DNA from: Leptodesmis sichuanensis A121 | GTDB taxonomy: Bacteria; Cyanobacteriota; Cyanobacteriia; Leptolyngbyales; Leptolyngbyaceae | Length of the DNA stretch: 64,000 nucleotides | Assembly: GCF_021379005.1 (NCBI RefSeq) | Contig: NZ_CP075171.1 | Location: forward strand, 5,208,001-5,272,000 | Direction of reading: 5' to 3' | Shown here: one piece after another, positions 17,804 through 32,568 of the stretch | How positions within the stretch are numbered: the first letter of the stretch is position 1 | Layout: each line of letters opens with the position of its first letter | Notes under the pieces: generated by a model | Database searches by the model: none | Seen by the model: the letters and a program-made list of their open reading frames with translations, nothing else | What the model was told of the DNA's origin: nothing | Translations under genes and position numbers: made by a program

Positions 17804-18931
17804 CTATAAATCTGACCAGAGGCGCATTGTGCGGAGGAGCGATCGCAGGATGGTTTCTCGGCGAGAGATAATGTCAGCCCTGACCTCCATTCCTGGTTGA
17901 ATTGGAAATGGACGGTCGGCAGTACCGAGATAGGGGCGATCGGGTTGAATAGTGACTTCGTAGTAAGAAGTGCTTGGCTCACTATTGTTTTCTCCAGCAG
18001 TCACCACATCCGGTGCGATCGCCTGTACCGTTCCTGTCAGAATGCCGTAGTCGGGATAGGGATAGGCCGTGATCCGCAACTGACTGGTCTGGCCCACTGC
18101 CACCTGGCTAATATCCTGGGTATTAACCCTGGCTTTCACCACCAGAGGCACGTTACGAGGCATAATTTGAGCCAGCACATCAGTGGGACGTGCCGCTTGA
18201 CCGCTTGCACTCGACCCCAGCCTTAAAATGGTGCCATCGACGGGAGATTGAATCGCTAACTGGCTTAAGTCTGCATTCACCTTCTGTAAAGTGGCTTGAT
18301 CCAGGTTGATCTGAGCAACCAGGCCACGCCGTTGTTCCAGCAGGCGATCGCGCTCCTGAGCCAACTGTTGGGCTTCTGGGGGGGCAGTTTGATTGATTTT
18401 CGCCAGGGCGGTCACAATATCGGCCTCTGTTAGCGATCCGGCCTGATCGCTGGGGGTGGGGGTGGGGGTGCCAGCACGGGACATGATCTTGGTATTAAGC
18501 TGTGCCAATTGAGTATCGACCTGATTGATCTGATCTTGATATTGGTTAATGTACTGTTGCACGTTGCTGCGCTGCGTCCGCAAGGCCAGCAGACGATTTT
18601 GATCTGGCACACCAATCTCAGCAATGACATCTCCTTGTCGGACAGATTGACTTTCTTGAACTAAAATCCGTCCGATCGTCACCCCAGGTGGAGCCTGTAC
18701 CACACTCAAATCGCCAGCCGGTCGAACACTGGCTGGAGCTTGCACCGTGACGTTGTACTCTATAACAGCCGCAAGCCCAACCATGCCTGCCATCACTCCA
18801 ATTAGCGCCATTGCCCCACCGCTCATCCAGCGACTCATGGGAGGTAGAAAATCATCTTCTTGAAAAGGTTGCAAAAACTCTGGATTTTGCAGAGTTGGAT
18901 TTTGCCGATCGGAATTGTGTTGTTCAAGCAT
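17804..18931 (-). CDS. HlyD-family membrane fusion (adaptor) protein of the peptide exporter
   Basis: 375 residues: cytosolic tail, one transmembrane helix (about 40-60), a barrel-sandwich/lipoyl half (APASVRPAGDLSVVQAPPG), a coiled-coil hairpin rich in Gln (YINQYQDQINQVDTQLAQL) and the matching second lipoyl half (LAIQSPVDGTILRLG). Adaptors of this kind link an ABC exporter to a TolC-type outer-membrane channel. It is divergent from the double-glycine precursor and the C39 transporter genes, across a 417-base spacer; the three probably form one export system. Three GGGGGT hexamers (18452-18469) encode a TPTPTP linker in the hairpin. No TolC gene is near. Confidence 0.88.
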   Translation of the reverse strand: MLEQHNSDRQNPTLQNPEFLQPFQEDDFLPPMSRWMSGGAMALIGVMAGMVGLAAVIEYNVTVQAPASVRPAGDLSVVQAPPGVTIGRILVQESQSVRQGDVIAEIGVPDQNRLLALRTQRSNVQQYINQYQDQINQVDTQLAQLNTKIMSRAGTPTPTPSDQAGSLTEADIVTALAKINQTAPPEAQQLAQERDRLLEQRRGLVAQINLDQATLQKVNADLSQLAIQSPVDGTILRLGSSASGQAARPTDVLAQIMPRNVPLVVKARVNTQDISQVAVGQTSQLRITAYPYPDYGILTGTVQAIAPDVVTAGENNSEPSTSYYEVTIQPDRPYLGTADRPFPIQPGMEVRADIISRRETILRSLLRTMRLWSDL

Positions 18932-19348
18932 GGATACTTCGTCAGTGAATTAGACACCCATAGATCCATTTTCATCAAGATTTGCTCAATTCCGCATTTT
19001 TTTAGCAACTTCACTGACTTTCCTGACAGGCCCTTGAGGCGACTTCTAAAAAAAATCTAAAAAAAGGGGGAACCGTCCGGATAAACACGGATAGAGGTGA
19101 AGTCTGTTTATATTCAACCACTCGACAGGAGCTTAGAAAGCCTCTTTCTCTTCTACTGCGGTTTGTGTAAACGCTTTAGAACCTTCTAGAAAGTCGTTTC
19201 GTCGGATTGAGTTAGAAGTTTTTGATAGTTTTCTAAGTTTTCCTGATTAATCTTTTGTTTTGTTGTTACTGTATACAGCTTCACCCTTGAACTAGGGCAA
19301 GAAGCCTATCAAATTTGTTCTCATCTGGAGTTTTTGGAGAATCACACT
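18932..19348. other. Divergent promoter region between HlyD and precursor peptide genes
   Basis: 417 bases without a supported gene. It is AT-rich, with A-tracts at 19047-19065. TATACA at 19272-19277, 72 bases before the precursor start, is a candidate -10 element without a convincing -35. The long leader suggests control of the precursor message, but no known riboswitch was recognised. Confidence 0.5.
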
Positions 19349-19537
19349 ATGGACACCAACAATAAGTCTGAATTGTTTACCGATCTGTCGCAAGAACAAT
19401 CCGAAACTGTTCAAGGGGGTTGCCACCGCTACTATCGGTCTTACTACTATCGGCCCTACTCCCACTACTACTACGAGCCTCGTGGTTACTACTACCGGCC
19501 CTATTCCTACCGCCGTTGCAGACGGTGGTACTACTAA
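19349..19537 (+). CDS. Double-glycine peptide precursor with Tyr/Arg-rich core
   Basis: 62 residues from the ATG at 19349, with GGAG eight bases upstream. The leader is 24 residues, MDTNNKSELFTDLSQEQ then SETVQGG, matching the LSxEQSExVxGG leader type cut by C39 peptidases. The predicted core of 38 residues begins at Cys25. It contains 16 Tyr, 9 Arg, 2 His, 2 Cys and one Trp, with YYYRPYS occurring twice. The two cysteines are at core positions 1 and 33 and could form a disulfide. It would be strongly cationic and aromatic. The transporter gene follows 216 bases downstream on the same strand. No modifying enzyme is encoded nearby, so an unmodified bacteriocin-like or surface-binding peptide is my best guess. 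I know of no close relative of the core. Confidence 0.85.
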   Translation: MDTNNKSELFTDLSQEQSETVQGGCHRYYRSYYYRPYSHYYYEPRGYYYRPYSYRRCRRWYY

Positions 19538-19599
19538 ACCGCTTGACCAGGGTTTGTTCTCAAGCACTGGTTTCCGGTTGGGATAAGTGAGATAAGGCT

Positions 19600-19637
19600 G
19601 AGTGCTGAGAACTGAAGATTATTCTTTCTCAGCACTC
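19600..19637 (+). terminator. 12-bp perfect hairpin after the precursor gene
   Basis: GAGTGCTGAGAA (19600-19611), a 14-base loop, then TTCTCAGCACTC (19626-19637), followed by ATTTCTTT. A stable stem with a weak T-run: a terminator or an mRNA-stabilising 3' end for the abundant short precursor transcript. Confidence 0.65.
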
Positions 19638-19664
19638 ATTTCTTTGCACTACTAAAGTCTACGG

Positions 19665-19698
19665 AAAGGCACCCATTCACTTGGGTGTCTTTCTTTTA
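19665..19698 (+). terminator. Second terminator-like hairpin before the transporter gene
   Basis: AAAGGCACCC (19665-19674), an 8-base loop, GGGTGTCTTT (19683-19692; one G-T wobble), then CTTTT. It ends about 55 bases before the transporter ATG. In series with the hairpin at 19600, it could make the transporter message a minor read-through product. Confidence 0.65.
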
Positions 19699-19753
19699 CG
19701 GATGTCATCCCAGAGAACGTGAATTAAACTCAATAGACAATCAGGTTGAATCC

Positions 19754-21901
19754 ATGAAGTACGCTGTTTTTCTTCAACACACCGAAACGGATTGTGGAGC
19801 CGCTTGCCTGGGGGCGATCGCCAAGCACCACGGGCTGACCTTAACCCTCAATCGTCTGCGTGAATCTGTGGGAACTGGACAGCAGGGCACCACACTACTG
19901 GGATTGCAACGGGGAGCCGATACATTAGGGTTCAATGCTCGCAGTGTGCGAGCGGCACCGGAAGTTTTACAGCGGTTAAATGAAGCTCCGTTGCCTGCAA
20001 TCATTCATTGGCAGGGCACCCACTGGGTTGTGTTGTATGGACGGCAGAAGCAGCAGTATGTGGTGATGGATCCTGCAGTGGGGCTGCGCTATCTGTCTGA
20101 GGAAGAACTCCGCAAAGGGTGGACAGATTGGGTAATGTTGCTGCTGGATCCGGATGCGGCTCGCTTCTCAAAGGAGGGCAGCAGCGATCGCCCCAGTGTC
20201 TTAAAAAATTCTCTGCGCCGGATGTGGGCAGCCCGTACCCTGCTGTTGCAGATTTTGCTGATTAACGTCGTACTGGGTTTTCTGTCGATTGCTACCCCAT
20301 TTCTGATTCAAATCCTCACAGATGATATTTTGGTGCGGGGAGATCTGCGGTTGCTGAATACGTTCGCGATCGCAGTCATTATTCTCAACTTCTTTAGTAG
20401 TGGTTTAGGGCTGGTGCAGGCCAATCTCACCGCCTACTTTGCTCAAAAATTAGAACTGGGTCTGGTGATGGAATTTGGGCGGGCGATTCTCAACCTGCCC
20501 CTCACCTATTACGAAACTCATCGCAGTGGAGAAATTGTCAGCCGTTTGCGTGATATTGAATCCCTGAATCAACTGGTCGCTGAGGTGATCGTCAGCCTGC
20601 CCAGTCAGGTATTCATTGCCCTAATTTCGCTTGTCTTTATGGCGATTTTCAGTTGGAAGCTCACCTTGCTGGCAATTTTCCTGGCGATTTTAATGACCAT
20701 TTCGACTGTGGCCTTCCTGCCCACCTTGCAACGCAAAACCCGCGATTTGCTGGTGTTGGATGCCGAAAATCAGGGCGTTCTGGTAGAAAACTTTAAGGGC
20801 GCACTGACCGTTAAAACCACCACCGCTGTACCGCAACTCTGGGAAGAATTACAAGGTCGATTTGGGCGGTTAGCAAATCTGAGTTTCCGCACGAATCAAA
20901 TTGGCATTACCAACAATATTTTTTCCGGCCTGGTGTCGGGAATTGGGGCGGTGATTTTGCTCTGGTTTGGCAGCACACTGGTGATTGGGAAAGAACTGTC
21001 GATCGGGCAATTGCTGGCGTTTATTAGCTTTAATACCAATTTCACATCCCTGATCACGACAGTTGTGAAATTTGTCGATGAGTTTACCCGTGTGAAAACC
21101 GCATCCGAACGGTTAGCGGAAGTGATCGACCATGAATCGGAGCAGACTGGCAAATCAACCAAACCCTCCGTCTCTCTACCTGCCGATGCCCCGATCACCT
21201 GCCATCAACTGTCGTTCCACTATCCGGGACGGGCAGATTTACTGGAATCATTTTCACTGACCATTCCGGGTGGTCGAGTGGTAGCTCTCGTAGGCAGGTC
21301 TGGCTGTGGCAAGAGCACCCTGGCTAAATTGCTGGCTGGTCTGTATCCTCTCCAGGTAGGCAATATTCGGATTGGCTCCTATAATCTGCCCGATTTGGCG
21401 CTGGAGTGTGTGCGTCAGCAAATTGTCTTAATCCCTCAGGAACCCCATTTCTGGAGCCGCTCCATTCTGGAAAACTTTCAACTTGCAGTACCCGGCGTGA
21501 CCTTTGAGGAGGTGGTCAGAGTTTGCCAGATTGCCGGAGCCGATGAATTTATTAGCCGACTTCCTGAAAAATATCAAACAATTCTGGGAGAATTTGGAGC
21601 CAACCTCTCCGGCGGCCAACGGCAACGGTTAGCGATCGCTCGTGCGCTGCTGAGCAATCCTCCTGTGCTAATCCTGGATGAATCAACTGCTAATCTGGAT
21701 CCAGCCAGCGAGGCAGACGTGCTGAGTGAGTTGCTGGCCTATCGTCGAGGCATGACTACAATCTTAATCAGCCATCGTCCACGAGTTGTGGAACGGGCCG
21801 ATTGGATTATTGTTCTGGATCAGGGTAGAGTTGTTTTAGAGGGCGATCCCGCAGATCTACGGACAAAACCAGGCAACTATTTGAACTTCCTCAATCCTTA
21901 G
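19754..21901 (+). CDS. Peptidase-containing ABC transporter (C39 peptidase-permease-ATPase)
   Basis: 715 residues from the ATG at 19754 (MKYAVFLQHTETDCGAACLG, AGG upstream). Residues 1-135 are a C39 cysteine peptidase with intact Gln8, Cys14, His90 (GTHWVVLYG) and Asp106 (VMDPAVG). It cleaves after the GG of leader peptides. Residues 165-460 form the six-helix exporter core. The C-terminal ATPase has Walker A GRSGCGKST, signature LSGGQRQR and Walker B LILDESTANLD. It should mature and export the peptide encoded at 19349-19537 together with the HlyD protein encoded at 17804-18931. An upstream in-frame start at 19685 lies in the terminator-like hairpin and is unlikely. Confidence 0.94.
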   Translation: MKYAVFLQHTETDCGAACLGAIAKHHGLTLTLNRLRESVGTGQQGTTLLGLQRGADTLGFNARSVRAAPEVLQRLNEAPLPAIIHWQGTHWVVLYGRQKQQYVVMDPAVGLRYLSEEELRKGWTDWVMLLLDPDAARFSKEGSSDRPSVLKNSLRRMWAARTLLLQILLINVVLGFLSIATPFLIQILTDDILVRGDLRLLNTFAIAVIILNFFSSGLGLVQANLTAYFAQKLELGLVMEFGRAILNLPLTYYETHRSGEIVSRLRDIESLNQLVAEVIVSLPSQVFIALISLVFMAIFSWKLTLLAIFLAILMTISTVAFLPTLQRKTRDLLVLDAENQGVLVENFKGALTVKTTTAVPQLWEELQGRFGRLANLSFRTNQIGITNNIFSGLVSGIGAVILLWFGSTLVIGKELSIGQLLAFISFNTNFTSLITTVVKFVDEFTRVKTASERLAEVIDHESEQTGKSTKPSVSLPADAPITCHQLSFHYPGRADLLESFSLTIPGGRVVALVGRSGCGKSTLAKLLAGLYPLQVGNIRIGSYNLPDLALECVRQQIVLIPQEPHFWSRSILENFQLAVPGVTFEEVVRVCQIAGADEFISRLPEKYQTILGEFGANLSGGQRQRLAIARALLSNPPVLILDESTANLDPASEADVLSELLAYRRGMTTILISHRPRVVERADWIIVLDQGRVVLEGDPADLRTKPGNYLNFLNP

Positions 21902-22122
21902 GATCGCCAGTTACAGCAATTGTCAGATGGGTTTGCTGCAGCCCCGGGCTTGGGAAATGGGGGTAGGAGGTGAGGTGGGGAGAAGTGATCTTCACAGAAT
22001 CTTGAGGGAAATGGCAGGATAATTCCGGGAATCCACTGAACCTTTAGAGTAGTATGTAAGCGAAGGGGTGCAGGATAGTCAAGAAAGGGATGAAGTTCTA
22101 TTGAGTTCAGTGGGAGGGCTAT

Positions 22123-22617
22123 ATGCGTCGATTGAGTGTTCTTGCCTCTTTAAGTGCGATCGCTTTAATGGCTGTAGGTTGCACCTCTACAAAAAACCCT
22201 GAAATCCTTGCCAAAGCTCCTATTGAATTGGATGCGAAAGATGCAGTCGGTTCCATTCTGTTTGATCAGAAGACCTACTTCCTGGAAAACGATACATTTG
22301 CAACTTCCATCCAATCTCTCAAAACCAGCGTTTTACCAGAAACCCAAAGTTACAGATACAAACTAACTGCAAAGCCCAATCCGGCTCAAGGTGTTGTGAT
22401 TACGGCAACTTCTAAGCAACCGACTCTCAAAAGCTTCACGGGAGTGGTATTTGCGGTGAAATCAAAGAAGGGGTTGATGACTGTTTCCCAGATTTGCGAA
22501 ACTGTAAAACCTTCCACGGTGGCTCCCACTGCCCCCTCCATTCCCAAACAATCCTCTGATCAACTGCGTTGCCCAACAGGATCGCGATCGACACTGGATG
22601 TTTTGGCCATGCAGTGA
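22123..22617 (+). CDS. Type IV pilin-like G/H lipoprotein
   Basis: 164 residues with a lipoprotein signal: basic start, a hydrophobic stretch and lipobox LMAVGC, giving a lipid-anchored Cys20. The body contains KTYFLENDTFATSIQSL, typical of the pilin-like G/H proteins of cyanobacteria, which resemble type II secretion pseudopilins but lack the prepilin cleavage site. The start has a strong GGGAGGG ribosome site. The tail is Pro/Ser/Thr-rich. Function unknown; surface or periplasmic location is expected. It is a single-gene unit convergent with the TldD/PmbA gene. Confidence 0.78.
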   Translation: MRRLSVLASLSAIALMAVGCTSTKNPEILAKAPIELDAKDAVGSILFDQKTYFLENDTFATSIQSLKTSVLPETQSYRYKLTAKPNPAQGVVITATSKQPTLKSFTGVVFAVKSKKGLMTVSQICETVKPSTVAPTAPSIPKQSSDQLRCPTGSRSTLDVLAMQ

Positions 22618-22724: not shown

Positions 22725-24089
22725 TTAATCTCCAGTAACCGACAACTCCTCTACCCAAATATAGGGACAAATTCCGGCGGGGGTTAAATGGCCTTCCGGT
22801 TCCACGTAAATGATGGATTTCAGTAGTTCCAGAAAATCTCCTGCGATCGTGGCCGATTCAATACTGGTACGCTGCCCTTTGTTCACCAGCCAGCCGTCAA
22901 AGGGAAGAGAAAACGATCCCTGAAGAGCTTTGACTCCGGCATGGAGTGCATGTACATCATCCACCAGCACCACATTTTCAGCCGTATCCAGACTATAGGT
23001 TTGAGCAGGCGCTTCCCCTGGAAAGACATGGTAGAAATGGGGACTAATAGTGACTTTGGCCCCAATATTGGCATGACCTGTGGGTTGGGTATTGAACCGT
23101 TGCGCCGTCCCAGCACTGTGCAAAAAGTTGGTGAGCACGCCATCGGTAATTAAGGGAGTACGGCGGGTGGGTGTGCCTTCGCCATCAAAGGTGGTGGCAG
23201 CGACATTCTCTGGGTGACGGGCATCATCACACACGGAGAGCAGGGGCGAGGCAATCTGGGTGCCCAAAGATTCTGGAGTGGAAAGGCTTTGCCGATCGAG
23301 CACACTCTGGGCATTAAATAGATTGGAGAACGCCCCCAGTAAGCTGAGAAACGCTTCTGGGGAAAAGACGACCCGATATTTGCCTGTCGGGATCTTTTCG
23401 TAGTTGAGATGACTGATGGTTTTGTCTGCTGTTTCCTTGAGGCAGCCTTCAATGTCTAAATCCTGCAAGCCATGAGCCACGCGAAAGGCTCCGGCACTAC
23501 GGGGTTTCTTGCCTGCTTCTTCAGTTTTGCTATAGAGATAGATGGAGGCCGTCGAGCGGGTTTCTTGCCGCAGGGCACCAGCACTATTGAGGTAGAAGCG
23601 ATCGCTCCATCGTTGTGCCAGACCGTTGTAAGGCACGCTGACGATCGCTGGATGCACTGCCAGCAAATCTTTTTCAGCCGCAATCAATTTTTCCAGCAGG
23701 TCAGAAACGGGCACCGGAGGCGTAACCTCGCTGGTAGAGGGTTCGATGGGAGCGGTGGCTTCCGGGCTGAAATCCGGTACATTTTCCTTTACTCCAAAGA
23801 AACTTGCTTCATAAGCCGTTTTCAAGGCCAATTCCAGACCCGCAGGATCCACATCCGTTGTGGAAGTTACGCCCATCGTTTGCTGATCATTCCAGACCCG
23901 CACAGTTACACTGGAACGATTCGAGGCTTTGACCTGATCGGCTTTTCCCTGGTCAACCTTGACGCTGGTTTCATCGACCGTCGCGCCGTATACATCGAAT
24001 TTCTGAATTCCCAGGCGATCGGCGATTGCTTTTGCCTGAGTAGCCAAATTTTGAATATCCGCCACAGTCTCTTCCTCATCCTGACTCAT
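22725..24089 (-). CDS. TldD/PmbA (TldE)-family metallopeptidase-like protein
   Basis: 454 residues from the ATG at 24087-24089. TldD/TldE heterodimers degrade unfolded peptides and trim RiPP leaders such as microcin B17. Seen here are the N-terminal A-fold (ADRLGIQKFDVYGATVDE), the strand YRVVFSPEAFLSLLGAFSNLF and the C-terminal block DGVLTNFLHSAGTAQRFN, which fit the PmbA/TldE subunit. The zinc-binding HExxxH motif of TldD is absent, as expected for TldE. The partner tldD is not in the window. Its closeness to the peptide-export locus (less than 1 kb from the transporter, opposite strand, one gene between) is suggestive but may be chance. Confidence 0.85.
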   Translation of the reverse strand: MSQDEEETVADIQNLATQAKAIADRLGIQKFDVYGATVDETSVKVDQGKADQVKASNRSSVTVRVWNDQQTMGVTSTTDVDPAGLELALKTAYEASFFGVKENVPDFSPEATAPIEPSTSEVTPPVPVSDLLEKLIAAEKDLLAVHPAIVSVPYNGLAQRWSDRFYLNSAGALRQETRSTASIYLYSKTEEAGKKPRSAGAFRVAHGLQDLDIEGCLKETADKTISHLNYEKIPTGKYRVVFSPEAFLSLLGAFSNLFNAQSVLDRQSLSTPESLGTQIASPLLSVCDDARHPENVAATTFDGEGTPTRRTPLITDGVLTNFLHSAGTAQRFNTQPTGHANIGAKVTISPHFYHVFPGEAPAQTYSLDTAENVVLVDDVHALHAGVKALQGSFSLPFDGWLVNKGQRTSIESATIAGDFLELLKSIIYVEPEGHLTPAGICPYIWVEELSVTGD

Positions 24090-24290
24090 CAATAGGCAAC
24101 TGAAAGGAACTCATTCCTTCTCCGCTGCCTTTTCATATTAACCAGTATGAACGACAGACCGACGAGCAGGGGAAGGAGAGTCAAGGCGATCGCGTGCAGC
24201 TAAAGTTGAAGTTTTTACCTGACCTGCAAGATTTCATCCGGAGTTGCCTCAACCCCCGTCGATAAATGGAAGGTATTTCCCCGTGTGGTT

Positions 24291-27711: not shown

Positions 27712-30700
27712 TCACTTGCGGGTGGACGAGTCAAAGTCACAGACCAGATCCTGAGCCTGCATTATGGCGGTCAGTTGGGGAGCAGTACCCAGAACGACCC
27801 GGCCATCCGGAGTGGTGATCAATCCCTGGGCCTCCTGAATCGGATCTCCAGGTTTCCAGGCCAGATAGGGAGTTTGGGGAGATGGGGCAGATGGGGATGG
27901 AGAAACGTGATTCATCGGGCCTCTACTGGAAGAAGCAGGGGAGGTAACAGGTTGGACGGGGGCGATATCATAACGGCCAGTCATTTGCGAATAGGGACTA
28001 CGGGCTAATCCCCCGGTGCCAGTAACGACGAAACTCCCCCGCTGAGCATTCCGACGAGTCAGGCAACTTCCTGCAACAATCTGGTCGGAGTTGACAAAGT
28101 CTTCGGGAAGAGCGTTGAGGGAATACTGGATAAAGCTGATGTCCGGGATCCGCACCGTTCCACTCATGCCGGAGACGGAGGAGGCTGAAATATCGACGCG
28201 GCCATTGCCCCGAAACCGAGAAAAGTCTCGCCCTGGATTGCGACCCACTGTGGCAAACAAATCGGCAATAAATACGGGTGCGCCGATCGTAATCGTGCCT
28301 CCATCCCCAAACTGGGAATTGGCGAGAATGTCACTGTCTTCAAAGGCTAGAAAAATCTTACTAGCCCGAATGCTAATATTACCGCCACCACCGCTACCAT
28401 CGGAGACGCTGCTGCTAATCAGACTGCTGTTTGTGAGCAAAATGTCGCGTGCAGTAATGTCAATGCGTCCGCCGCCGCCCTGCGCTGAGGAGGCAGCAAT
28501 TTCCCCAGCACTCAGCCGCAGGCGATCGCGCAAGTTGATGGTAATGGAGCCAGCGTTTCCTTGAGCGGTGCTGCGGCTAACAATTCTGCCCCCGTCATTG
28601 AGCAACAGGGAATTAGCCCGGATGCCGATCTGTCCTGCGTTTCCCCTACCTGTAGAGGCAGTTGAGATCTCGGCTCCATTACGAATTGTCAGATCTTCTC
28701 TGACCGCAAGTTGAATATTGCCGCCATTGCCATCGACCGTATCTGCGGCTAATCGCCCCCCCCGATCGAGCATGACGGAGCGGGCTGCGATGTCCAAATT
28801 TCCGGCATTCCCTGAACCGGAACTGCTGACGGTAGCCTGGGCACCGGTTTGTACCTGGAAGCGATCGGCGGCGATCGTCAGACTACCAGCGGCTCCACTG
28901 CCAGCGGATCGAGCGGCCAGTCGCCCACCGTTGTCTAGCAAGACCGAGTCAGATGCATTCACCGTTAAGATGCCGCCCCGTCCCTCTGCTTCTGTGGAGG
29001 CCGAGATTTCCGCATGACTGAGCACTCGTAGCTGTTGTGTACTGACGGTTAGTCGTCCTGCTGCGCCACTGCTTTGAGTCGCTACGGAAATTTCAGCTCC
29101 ATCCTGTACCAGAAGATTCGGTGTCGTCAGGGTTAAGTTCCCCGCTGCCCCGCTACCTGTCGATTGGGCAAACAGGCCACTGCTGGAGGCTCCATTCCTT
29201 CCGGATACCGTTATGCCCTGAGTGGCGTTGATTGTAATACTGCCTGCTGCTCCGGCTCCACTGGTAGAACTAACCAGTTGCCCACCATTTAGCAAATTCA
29301 AGCGATCAACATCGACTGTAATTTCGCCGCCCTGGCCTGCTGCACCTTCAGCCGTCGTACTGATCTTGCTGGCATTGGTCACTAGCAAGGAACCATTCCT
29401 GGCATTGACTGTGACATTTCCGCCTGAACCCGCACTGAAGGTTTTGGCATTTACCTCTGACCCATTCACCAGGGAAATAGATGGCCCGGTTAACTGAATA
29501 TTACCTCCCGATCCCGTGCCAAAGGTATCTGCATCAACCCTGACCCCGTCCAGATTAATAGTTCTACCCGACAGGATAATATTGCCCCCCGCAGCGGCTC
29601 CGCCCGGTTTGACAGTGGTTGTTACTTGACTGCCCTGGCTCAATGACAGACGATCGCTGGCGGTCAGGGAGACATTACCGCCAATGCCTGTGCTGGATGC
29701 GCTGGCGGTTGTTGCATCAATGACACTATTCCCAGACAGGTCAATGGATGCGCCGCGTATCGCGATCGTGCCGCCCCATCCTGTTCCGGTATCTTCCACG
29801 GAGGTGCGGAGAATACTGCCATTTTCTAAAGACACTTGTTGAGTGGCATCGATGGTAATGTTGCGGCCATTGACCGCGCCCCGATTGGGGGCTTGCAGTT
29901 GGAAATTGTTGAGGGTGACATTGCCGCCCTGAATCGTAATGTCGCCCCCATTGCCAGGATTGGCGGGGAAGGTGTCGGCATAAAAGCTCCCCCCCGATAA
30001 GTACACAGTTCCGTTATGGGTTGCGCTGACTGAGATATTGCCGTTCCGGCCAGGGCCAAAGGCCGCCGCGTTGATCGTCGAGTCAACCAGCCCAATACCA
30101 TTAGCCGTCAGGCTGACATTCCCTGCGCTGCCCGCTCCAGAGGTGGTGGTATCAATGATGCTGTTGGTTGCAGCGATCGTCCCATTCAGAGCAGTCAGGG
30201 TAACATTTCCTCCCGCTCCATCTCCGCCATCTACGCTGGTGAACAGGCCAGAATTGGGTTGTAAGGTAATGGATCCAGCCGTGAAATCAATGCTTCCGGC
30301 TGCTCCCGTACCACTGGCTGCGACGGCTGTTTGTACCTGACTGCCGCTGGCGATCGTGATGCTTCCTGTTGCCGCCGCCTGAATCTCAATATTGCCGGAA
30401 TTCCCCGTCCCTGAGCTATTGGCATAGACTAATGTATTGCTCCCCAAGGTGAAGGATTGACCCGCGATCGTAATATTTCCGGCGGCTCCCGGCCCAAAGG
30501 TGCTGGTATCCAGAATCGCATCAGGAGTCACCAGCACGGAACCGTCACCTGTAAAGCGAATTGCCCCTCCGCCTCCCAAACTACCGCCATACGTCCGAAT
30601 CGTTCCGGTTGTAAGATCGTTCCTGGCAGTCAGGGTAACGGCTCCCCCATTCCCCCCAGCCTGAGCTGCGAAAGCATTCAGACTGCCAAGAGCGGCACTA

Positions 30701-32568
30701 ATATTGCCTGATCGACTGGTGAGGGTAATGTTGCCTGCGTTGCCATTTACCGATGAAGTATCGATTCCCTGGCTGGTAATGTCTTGATTGGCCGTGACAT
30801 TAACAGATCCCCCATTCCCCACTGCCAGCGAGGAGGCATTCACTGGGCCAAGGTTCGCTGTACTGCCCGCCTGAACTGCGATCGCACCTGCAGTCCCATT
30901 AGCTGCGGAACTGGTGATGCTGTTTGCCACAGTCACCGCCCCCCCGGTAGAGGTCAGTTGGACACTGCCCCCATTGCCCACGGCTGCCGTCGATCCGCTA
31001 TTAATTGCTGTGGCAGTCAGATTACCACCTGCACTCAAGCTCACTGAACCGCCGTTTCCGGTGGCCGAGGAGGTGTCGATAATACCCACCGCGATCGTGC
31101 CAGGGGTAGTAAGGCGAAAGGACGGGCCAGTGAAGTTACCAAAGGTGACATTGCCTGCACTTTGAATAGACAATCCTGCTGCACTGCTGATGGGAATGGT
31201 GCTGGAAACTGGACCATTGCTGCTAATCAATTCCACACTACTGCCACTCTGAAGCAGACTATTCGGATTCACGGTGGCCATCGTAATTCCCTGGTTGCCC
31301 TGCACCAGCAGATTGCTGCCAGCACTGGCCGTCAATGGGGTGATGGGCGTGTCTTGAACTTGCAGAACTCCCTGGGTGGCGATCGTCAGGGTGCCAGCCG
31401 CGGTCAGTTGATTGCTTGTCAGCCCCAGGTTACTGCCTGCCAGGAGAGTTAGATTTCCCCCGGTACTGGTGATCTGCCCTCCCGTGGTCGTCAGGGTAGT
31501 TCCGGCGAAGAGAGTCGCATTGCCGCTGCTGGTTAACCGTCCATTTGCCAAGATGGCACCGCTGGGACTGCTCACCGATAGGGAACCCGCCGTTTGCATC
31601 AGACTGGCTGGGTTCCTTAAGCTGTCAATTACGACCCCTTGATCGCCCTGAATGGTGAGATTGCCGCCTGCTGTCAAATTGCTCGGATTAATGGCGGTAT
31701 CTGCCAGTTGCACGGTGTTTTGGGCAGTCAGCGATAAGTCACCCGTTGTGGTGATCTGGCTGCTGAACAGATTCAGAGTATTGCTGGCCGAGAGGGTCGC
31801 CGTCTGAGCGTTCACCGTCTGTACCGTAGCATTTCCGGCAGTGGCAGAAACCGTCACGCCTCCCGCAGGAGCCAGGAGTGAGCCGCTACTGTTGACAGTG
31901 TTGCCCTGCAAAGTTAAATTCTGACCTGCCTGAAGGGAGCCGCCGTTGGTAATCGTATTGGAGATCAGGGAGAGATTTTGGCCAGCTTGCAGAGCGGCCT
32001 GATTGGTAATGGCTTGATTTGCCAGGGCATTGAGGAATAACGCTCCGGGTTCAACGGCGACTAAAGTGCTGCTGGCCGGACTGGTGGCACTAAACAGACC
32101 CGTAGTTCCCAGTTGAATGCCGCTTGCCGTCGTGGCCAGAAAGGAGCCTTGTACATTCAGACTGGCATTTGGCCCAAAAAGGATGCCATTGGGATTGATC
32201 AGGTACAAATTAGCTGGCCCCAGTACACCCAATGTGCCAAAAATGTTAGAGGGATTGGTGCCTGTAACGCGGGTGAGAATGTTGGAAACGCCGGCAGGAT
32301 TGGCAAAGTAAACGCCCCGATCGGCCCCAACATTAAACTCCTGAAAACTGTGGAACAGGTTAATCCCCCGCACTGCACCGCCGCCAATGACGTTACTGGG
32401 TAGGCCGTTAATCAATTGTTCGGCCCCGACAGCAGACGATTCTGCTCCGAGGGTGCCATCGGGCAGAAGTTGAGCCTGCAGGGGAGAAGGATTGACGGCG
32501 ATCGCCCCCAGAGCCAATCCTCCTATCAGCCATAAGTCCCATCCCGGCCTGCTGCCATCGGCTGTCAT
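27712..32568 (-). CDS. Filamentous haemagglutinin-like TpsA adhesin
   Basis: 1618 residues. Signal peptide (about 1-33, ending PSPLQAQ), then the TPS secretion domain with AVRGINLFHSFQEFNV, FANPAG and NLYLINPNGILFGPNASL, as in all two-partner exoproteins. About 1200 residues of Gly/Asn/Ser/Thr-rich beta-helix repeats follow (recurrent GSGAAGN and GGNI steps). The C-terminal block, with CLTRRNAQRGSFVVTGTGGL and AQDLVCDF, is characteristic of the cyanobacterial subgroup. Secreted through the TpsB pore encoded at 35843-37594. The start has GGGAG upstream. It is probably a surface adhesin; ligand unknown. Confidence 0.92.
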   Translation of the reverse strand: MTADGSRPGWDLWLIGGLALGAIAVNPSPLQAQLLPDGTLGAESSAVGAEQLINGLPSNVIGGGAVRGINLFHSFQEFNVGADRGVYFANPAGVSNILTRVTGTNPSNIFGTLGVLGPANLYLINPNGILFGPNASLNVQGSFLATTASGIQLGTTGLFSATSPASSTLVAVEPGALFLNALANQAITNQAALQAGQNLSLISNTITNGGSLQAGQNLTLQGNTVNSSGSLLAPAGGVTVSATAGNATVQTVNAQTATLSASNTLNLFSSQITTTGDLSLTAQNTVQLADTAINPSNLTAGGNLTIQGDQGVVIDSLRNPASLMQTAGSLSVSSPSGAILANGRLTSSGNATLFAGTTLTTTGGQITSTGGNLTLLAGSNLGLTSNQLTAAGTLTIATQGVLQVQDTPITPLTASAGSNLLVQGNQGITMATVNPNSLLQSGSSVELISSNGPVSSTIPISSAAGLSIQSAGNVTFGNFTGPSFRLTTPGTIAVGIIDTSSATGNGGSVSLSAGGNLTATAINSGSTAAVGNGGSVQLTSTGGAVTVANSITSSAANGTAGAIAVQAGSTANLGPVNASSLAVGNGGSVNVTANQDITSQGIDTSSVNGNAGNITLTSRSGNISAALGSLNAFAAQAGGNGGAVTLTARNDLTTGTIRTYGGSLGGGGAIRFTGDGSVLVTPDAILDTSTFGPGAAGNITIAGQSFTLGSNTLVYANSSGTGNSGNIEIQAAATGSITIASGSQVQTAVAASGTGAAGSIDFTAGSITLQPNSGLFTSVDGGDGAGGNVTLTALNGTIAATNSIIDTTTSGAGSAGNVSLTANGIGLVDSTINAAAFGPGRNGNISVSATHNGTVYLSGGSFYADTFPANPGNGGDITIQGGNVTLNNFQLQAPNRGAVNGRNITIDATQQVSLENGSILRTSVEDTGTGWGGTIAIRGASIDLSGNSVIDATTASASSTGIGGNVSLTASDRLSLSQGSQVTTTVKPGGAAAGGNIILSGRTINLDGVRVDADTFGTGSGGNIQLTGPSISLVNGSEVNAKTFSAGSGGNVTVNARNGSLLVTNASKISTTAEGAAGQGGEITVDVDRLNLLNGGQLVSSTSGAGAAGSITINATQGITVSGRNGASSSGLFAQSTGSGAAGNLTLTTPNLLVQDGAEISVATQSSGAAGRLTVSTQQLRVLSHAEISASTEAEGRGGILTVNASDSVLLDNGGRLAARSAGSGAAGSLTIAADRFQVQTGAQATVSSSGSGNAGNLDIAARSVMLDRGGRLAADTVDGNGGNIQLAVREDLTIRNGAEISTASTGRGNAGQIGIRANSLLLNDGGRIVSRSTAQGNAGSITINLRDRLRLSAGEIAASSAQGGGGRIDITARDILLTNSSLISSSVSDGSGGGGNISIRASKIFLAFEDSDILANSQFGDGGTITIGAPVFIADLFATVGRNPGRDFSRFRGNGRVDISASSVSGMSGTVRIPDISFIQYSLNALPEDFVNSDQIVAGSCLTRRNAQRGSFVVTGTGGLARSPYSQMTGRYDIAPVQPVTSPASSSRGPMNHVSPSPSAPSPQTPYLAWKPGDPIQEAQGLITTPDGRVVLGTAPQLTAIMQAQDLVCDFDSSTRK

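Follow-up and report, generated by a model that had tools for sequence, protein, structure and literature searches.

What does a C39 exporter locus release when the peptide encoded beside it consists mostly of tyrosine and arginine, and what would such a peptide do outside the cell? The question is raised by a stretch of 64,000 nucleotides from the genome of Leptodesmis sichuanensis A121 (contig NZ_CP075171.1, positions 5,208,001 to 5,272,000; hereafter the window, whose own numbering is used throughout). Here, a 62-codon open reading frame (ORF; 19349-19537, forward strand) lies between a divergent hlyD gene (17804-18931, reverse strand) and the gene for a C39 peptidase-ATP-binding cassette (ABC) exporter (19754-21901, forward strand). 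The sequences show the locus itself, a family of peptides that includes the ORF product, selection acting on the peptide, and kinship between the exporter and PteB of Synechococcus elongatus. The explanation favoured here, held at about even confidence, is that of a secretion unit of the PteB/EbfG type that would export a disordered, cation-pi-rich peptide, most likely a structural component of the matrix or of the cell surface.

The precursor and its family

The precursor, assigned by ORF reading and by its homologs, has 62 residues and is divided into a double-glycine leader of 24 residues (MDTNNKSELFTDLSQEQSETVQGG, ending in LFTDLSQEQSETVQGG; 19349-19420) and a predicted mature core of 38 residues (CHRYYRSYYYRPYSHYYYEPRGYYYRPYSYRRCRRWYY; 19421-19534), 42% Tyr and 24% Arg. 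ORF reading confirmed the numbers given in the original prediction, namely 16 Tyr, 9 Arg and 2 Cys in the core, together with a duplicated YYYRPYS whose DNA copies (at 19442 and 19487) differ at two synonymous sites only. The net charge of the core is about +8, reaching +12 in relatives, and structure prediction returns it as disordered (mean predicted local distance difference test score of 53). In the leader, residues L9, F10 and G23 are invariant among relatives. The model of the CTB family bacteriocins (NF038167) matches leader residues 5-24 (E 9.5e-4), but the score of 19.3 bits is under the cut-off of 32, as are those of the nearest relatives, and the core is unmatched; the likeness to this family is thus one of leaders.

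To find relatives, 390 genomes of the class were searched with the peptide, followed by a reading of neighbourhoods, and named genomes were searched with an exporter alignment and a leader model; a core was counted as Tyr/Arg-rich at ≥15% Tyr and ≥35% Tyr plus Arg. This gave 39 distinct cores from 23 loci, which is what the original prediction had proposed to look for near C39 transporters, and its statement that no such peptide was known gives way to a family present in many cyanobacteria, with an export system of the described EbfG-PteB-HlyD type. The loci share a layout in which a divergent hlyD is followed by one to several double-glycine peptides and then by the exporter, and each holds one to four Tyr/Arg peptides in Leptolyngbyaceae (for example, Leptolyngbya L038), Microcoleus (L048, L052, L059), Phormidium, Okeania (L045, L046) and Trichodesmium (L047). 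The locus of Phormidium sp. LEGE 05292 (L056) carries three tandem peptide copies with 42-44% Tyr. In the profile search of the 390 genomes, the best matches (E <1e-8) nearly all adjoin exporter matches, the exceptions being G300 and G320. In G320, contig C100 shows an hlyD gene and four Tyr-rich double-glycine peptides (L025) but, over the 18 kb read, no gene for a C39 exporter, which in this genome sits on a different contig. The A121 genome itself, a single contig of 5.35 Mb that is 99.9% complete, yields one Tyr/Arg double-glycine peptide in the profile search and four C39 proteins. A search of genome contigs with the peptide alone returned no match, whereas the search with the exporter alignment did work; a plasmid collection returned none either.

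The ORF is more than a chance reading frame, because in-frame homologs occupy the equivalent place in other genera, the core is under purifying selection in one ortholog pair, and the codons are mixed. Loss of the frame in homologous loci had been named in advance as evidence against the peptide, and the frame is kept. The clearest ortholog pair (L124/L125) differs in the core by 13.75 synonymous and 8.25 nonsynonymous changes, a ratio of nonsynonymous to synonymous rates (dN/dS) of 0.20 that indicates purifying selection, and two of the L056 tandem copies differ by eight synonymous changes and one nonsynonymous change; for other pairs, dN/dS runs from 0.1 to >1, with one >3, on short alignments of low complexity. 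Tyrosine is encoded by 304 TAC and 176 TAT codons and all six arginine codons are used, so the family is not a DNA repeat. An orphan or spurious ORF is therefore ruled out by homologs and selection, and a DNA-repeat artefact by the mixed codons and synonymous differences.

The composition of the cores is distinctive also in what they lack. Pooled, the 39 cores have 28.6% Tyr, 20.0% Arg and 10.9% Gly, with 0.2% Lys, 0.5% Leu, 0.4% Ile and 0.5% Glu. The Arg to Lys ratio is 336:4 in cores versus 1258:885 in the exporters and HlyD adaptors encoded beside them (binomial 3e-71, a value overstated because related sequences are not independent), and the shortage of Lys holds also for genomes of 33-34% G+C. 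Most members have Tyr, His and Cys, but the number and spacing of His and Cys are not conserved. Cores with zero, one, two, three and four Cys number 4, 15, 12, 7 and 1, frequently with a terminal Cys (CW or CY ends); given this variation, an intramolecular disulfide cannot be the rule of the family and was rejected as such, which leaves the disulfide-linked product of the original prediction a weak idea. A distant locus of Cyanobacteria bacterium FACHB-502 (L095, 5508-5669) encodes a 29-residue Tyr/Arg core with four Cys.

An exporter of the PteB family and its expression layout

The exporter (ATG at 19754, end at 21901) has 715 residues with the Pfam domains Peptidase_C39, ABC_membrane and ABC_tran. 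The peptidase residues Q8, C14, H90 and D106 are present, as are the ATPase motifs (Walker A GRSGCGKS at 514, LSGGQ at 618, LILDE at 639, and H674), and a comparison with nine relatives shows little variation at these catalytic and ATPase positions. Its closest full-length solved relatives are peptidase transporters of the bacteriocin type (4ry2 and relatives). The hlyD product is a periplasmic adaptor of 375 residues (Pfam HlyD_3 and HlyD_D23; the TIGR01843 match is under its cut-off), and its orthologs in relatives have the same divergent placement. Pfam domains and motif reading thus bear out the earlier description of an intact peptidase-transporter with its adaptor.

Over its whole length, the exporter is 52% and 51% identical to C39 genes of two small genomes. 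The first of these (L122, identity over 715 residues) has upstream ORFs that contain TTYNPPSYPYPSYPK, SGYSIPTYPK and LLQTANSVAAAIAK, plus LAFNIG. In S. elongatus, the EbfG1, EbfG2 and EbfG4 peptides were detected by mass spectrometry directly after GG or GA (PMC4997328), and LAFNIG is the amyloid hotspot of EbfG2 (PMC9981879). Since the L122 ORFs hold exactly these mass-spectrometry peptides and the hotspot, this locus is ebfG-pteB-hlyD, and the exporter of the window is 52% identical to PteB. Biofilm formation in S. elongatus needs EbfG1-4, their GG motifs and the PteB cysteine; EbfG1-3 form amyloid, whereas EbfG4 is found on the cell surface as well as in the matrix (PMC4997328, PMC9981879). 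HlyD participates in secretion (PMC12647202).

The two systems are alike in that genes for HlyD and a short C39-ABC exporter accompany those for small precursors with a GG or GA motif; the mature N-termini of EbfG1/2 are Tyr/Pro-rich (TTYNPPSYPYPSYPK), and no dedicated modification enzyme is reported for the EbfG system. However, EbfG cores are longer, are not Tyr/Arg-rich overall (EbfG4 not even Tyr-rich) and carry an A-phi-N-I amyloid motif, which in none of the forms AFNI, ALNI or AINI occurs in the core studied here. Also, hlyD is downstream and co-directional in S. elongatus, whereas it is divergent in A121. The A121 locus combines a PteB-related C39 exporter with its Cys, His and Asp, HlyD, and a GG precursor directly upstream, and it lacks the homologous core plus A-phi-N-I motif that mark EbfG peptides. 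On the sequence comparison, then, the exporter belongs to the PteB transporter family and the cargo falls outside the EbfG peptide family. A second double-glycine peptide type is seen in L024, L025, L026, L027, L028, L029 and L038, with an N-terminal part rich in Tyr, Trp and Gly and a tail, SVxQ[ST][VT]NVNVx[IVY][DEN]D, that looks invariant in the alignment; EbfG1-3 have a similar S-V-x-Q-S-V stretch. Homology of this tail with SVKQSV/SVQQSV of EbfG1/2 was considered and kept as a lead only: the motif is present (shuffle p of about 0.01 each), and the profile comparison extends over the leader only.

The class of cargo goes with the clade of the exporter. When loci with a Tyr/Arg peptide and a divergent hlyD are marked on a tree of 106 exporters, 7 changes suffice to explain the marks, versus 15.1 in shuffles, none of 500 being as low. 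A single group of 29 rows, with modest branch support (82), takes in nearly all of these loci; in other clades, which are mostly Nostocales and have hlyD downstream and co-directional, the double-glycine peptides are quite different. Among these, Nostoc peptides (L061, 4596-4856; L066, 4392-4733) show repeated V/I-x-Q-x-A-x-N-V units that recall amyloid-type repeats, and the one tested has no Pfam match. Moreover, nine Microcoleus-type loci (L030, L040, L048, L050, L052, L057, L058, L059, L126) hold a further strongly conserved double-glycine peptide that is not Tyr/Arg-rich and ends in ..LFFLPQPSQLYLYDP..RPYKTLVV; one was tested and no known family matched.

Between the peptide and exporter genes, two terminator-like hairpins are found on the forward strand, at 19599-19638 (z -5.1) and at 19663-19694 (GGCACCC..GGGTGTC, then T-rich), the latter of a type seen at the equivalent place in most relatives. 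All 21 Tyr-rich loci scanned have a hairpin followed by T, usually RCACCC..GGGTGY, in the gap that separates the exporter gene from the last peptide; when such gaps were shuffled for 17 loci, a hairpin as stable arose once in 136 shuffles. A generic terminator scan of 18800-22200 missed both hairpins and returned fewer sites than in shuffles, and an Rfam search gave no match. The conserved hairpin points to a peptide transcript that is short and abundant, with little read-through into the exporter gene, a layout that suits a bulk product and is also compatible with a bacteriocin. The divergent intergenic region (18932-19348) presumably holds the promoters of hlyD and the peptide; neither a sigma-70-like site nor the remains of another double-glycine peptide were seen in it.

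Flanking genes

Downstream of the exporter and on the same strand, 22123-22617 encodes a Pilin_GH-domain protein with a possible lipoprotein signal. Such a protein is found 3' of the exporter in all six distinct loci of the subclade of the window (the window, L024, L026, L028, L029, L038) and is absent in the sister subclade (L027, L124, L125); the A121 genome has four Pilin_GH genes. Several of the loci that bear it also share a kinase gene upstream of hlyD, so a conserved chromosomal context explains part of this conservation, and whether the protein is part of the secretion system is uncertain. A gene at 22725-24092 (reverse strand) encodes a PmbA/TldD metallopeptidase. Because EbfE is called "microcin processing peptidase-like", this enzyme was considered for a part in maturation, and dropped because it is near no relative's exporter. 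Further downstream, at 27712-32568 on the reverse strand, a protein of 1618 residues has, with its translation judged by eye, the look of a filamentous-haemagglutinin-type exoprotein of two-partner secretion.

As tested or read, no enzyme of ribosomally synthesized and post-translationally modified peptides (RiPPs) is found among the neighbours within about 9 kb, and no LanC homolog (LANC_like) in the whole genome, so the locus is not of the lanthipeptide kind and the earlier statement that no dedicated modifying enzyme is present stands. No tyrosinase was found, in a search that had no positive control. Across the nine closest loci, no small immunity-like ORF is conserved; they share the peptide, the exporter, HlyD and, in one subclade, the Pilin_GH protein. 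TolC-type OEP domain genes are present elsewhere in the genome.

What the peptide would do outside the cell

Export after cleavage at the GG is well supported by family membership. For the rest, we infer that the C39 domain of the exporter would cut the leader after GG, that the exporter, HlyD and a TolC-type channel encoded elsewhere would carry the 38-residue peptide out of the cell, and that the peptide would have a structural part there, in the matrix or on the cell surface. Through multivalent cation-pi and pi-pi contacts between Tyr and Arg, perhaps with Cys or Tyr cross-links, it could stick to itself, to anionic sheath polysaccharide and to co-secreted peptides, and the hairpin before the exporter gene would let peptide output far exceed exporter output. 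Selection for cation-pi and pi-pi association would be expected to put Arg in the place of Lys and to leave Tyr as the one aromatic residue in abundance. The use of Arg over Lys, with few Leu, Ile or Glu, fits Arg-Tyr contacts better than a general positive charge.

The main rival reading is a cationic bacteriocin or antimicrobial, exported by a C39 transporter of the class II bacteriocin type and directed at the membranes of competitors or at an intracellular anionic target. The double-glycine leader with its weak match to the CTB family and a charge of +8 to +12 would suit this, and such cyanobacterial clusters have been catalogued as bacteriocin clusters (PMC3140520). In that survey, cluster group III has the same combination of short C39 exporter, HlyD and double-glycine precursors without lanthionine synthetase, and S. 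elongatus is listed with one such cluster; however, in the text read the survey describes cores rich in Gly, Cys, Ser and Thr and does not mention tyrosine, and the antibacterial function is assumed (PMC3140520). Against a bacteriocin stand the lack of a conserved small candidate immunity gene common to the loci, selection that is purifying rather than diversifying, and a nearest studied system that yields biofilm matrix (PMC4997328). The composition of the cores adds to this. Membrane-active cationic peptides are usually amphipathic, unlike cores nearly without Lys, Leu and Ile, and this difference, with the Arg-for-Lys and Tyr pattern, favours a matrix or surface peptide, so that a bacteriocin appears unlikely, though it is the strongest of the alternatives. 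Among the jobs listed in the original prediction, cell-surface glue fits best and bacteriocin less well.

Another conceivable role, clearly less probable than a bacteriocin, is to bind a ligand or polymer: a metal or heme held by Tyr, His and Cys, or else extracellular DNA, silica or carbonate. The Arg-rich cores and the Tyr, His and Cys of most members would allow it, and a cell-wall association is documented for the Tyr-rich diatom protein AC3362 (PMC4220933), but the shifting number and spacing of His and Cys and the absence of uptake or metal genes in the locus argue otherwise; polymer binding is in any case compatible with a matrix role. Slightly more doubtful still is a peptide modified in trans, through dityrosine, 3,4-dihydroxyphenylalanine (DOPA) or a disulfide ladder, and working as a covalent sheath protein: the very high Tyr content and frequent terminal Cys speak for it, whereas the locus has no oxidase or RiPP enzyme and the searches for LanC and tyrosinase described above were negative. 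Last in probability comes a role in communication, in which sister cells would sense the secreted peptide as a signal or pheromone, or as a cue that regulates motility or the behaviour of filaments. Quorum-sensing peptides of other bacteria are processed by C39 exporters, ComA structures are among the PDB matches of the exporter, and the peptidase exporter HetC is described as taking part in cell differentiation of Nostoc (PMC10986499), but no receptor or two-component system is adjacent, up to four different Tyr/Arg peptides occur per locus, the core is disordered and of low complexity, and the hairpin suggests bulk expression.

Several points also weigh against a matrix or surface peptide. 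Since the cargo of this exporter family differs greatly from clade to clade, kinship of exporters does not fix the function of the cargo. Compared with EbfG by hhalign, the peptides of the relatives reach 10.7%, over the leader only and with no detectable core homology, and the core of the A121 peptide has neither the EbfG amyloid motif nor the SVxQ tail of its closest relatives. Because the cores were chosen for Tyr and Arg, only the depletion of Lys, Leu, Ile and Glu is independent information. Mussel foot proteins and Arg/Tyr sticker condensates, which offer an analogy only (PMC4220933, PMC9845597), are eukaryotic, involve DOPA modification and have no homology to the core. They resemble it in being short, disordered and Tyr/Arg-rich. 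Diatom AC3362, picked for its mussel-adhesive likeness, proved to be a cell-wall protein (PMC4220933), which makes composition alone weak evidence for an adhesive and remains consistent with a structural surface role.

A matrix or surface peptide could be extended, tentatively, to a whole family of short, disordered Tyr/Arg sticker peptides secreted by bacteria. With Lys and aliphatic residues excluded, Arg-Tyr contacts would make such peptides condense, and cyanobacteria that form mats or colonies, among them Microcoleus, Okeania and Trichodesmium, would export them through a dedicated C39 clade and use them as a wet adhesive or as glue of the matrix. The kind of system is known and the Tyr/Arg cargo class appears to be undescribed, no description of such peptides having been found in the literature searched, which had partial coverage and few papers from subscription journals. 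It is routine to label double-glycine peptides of cyanobacteria as bacteriocins, although those studied in S. elongatus are biofilm matrix. Within one exporter family, the cargo class shifts between clades while the export machinery stays constant. The Tyr/Arg peptide would be a short, genetically encoded material of mussel-adhesive-like composition, and the Lys-excluding family, found in mat builders and in colony formers of the Trichodesmium type, is a testable candidate for filament cohesion.

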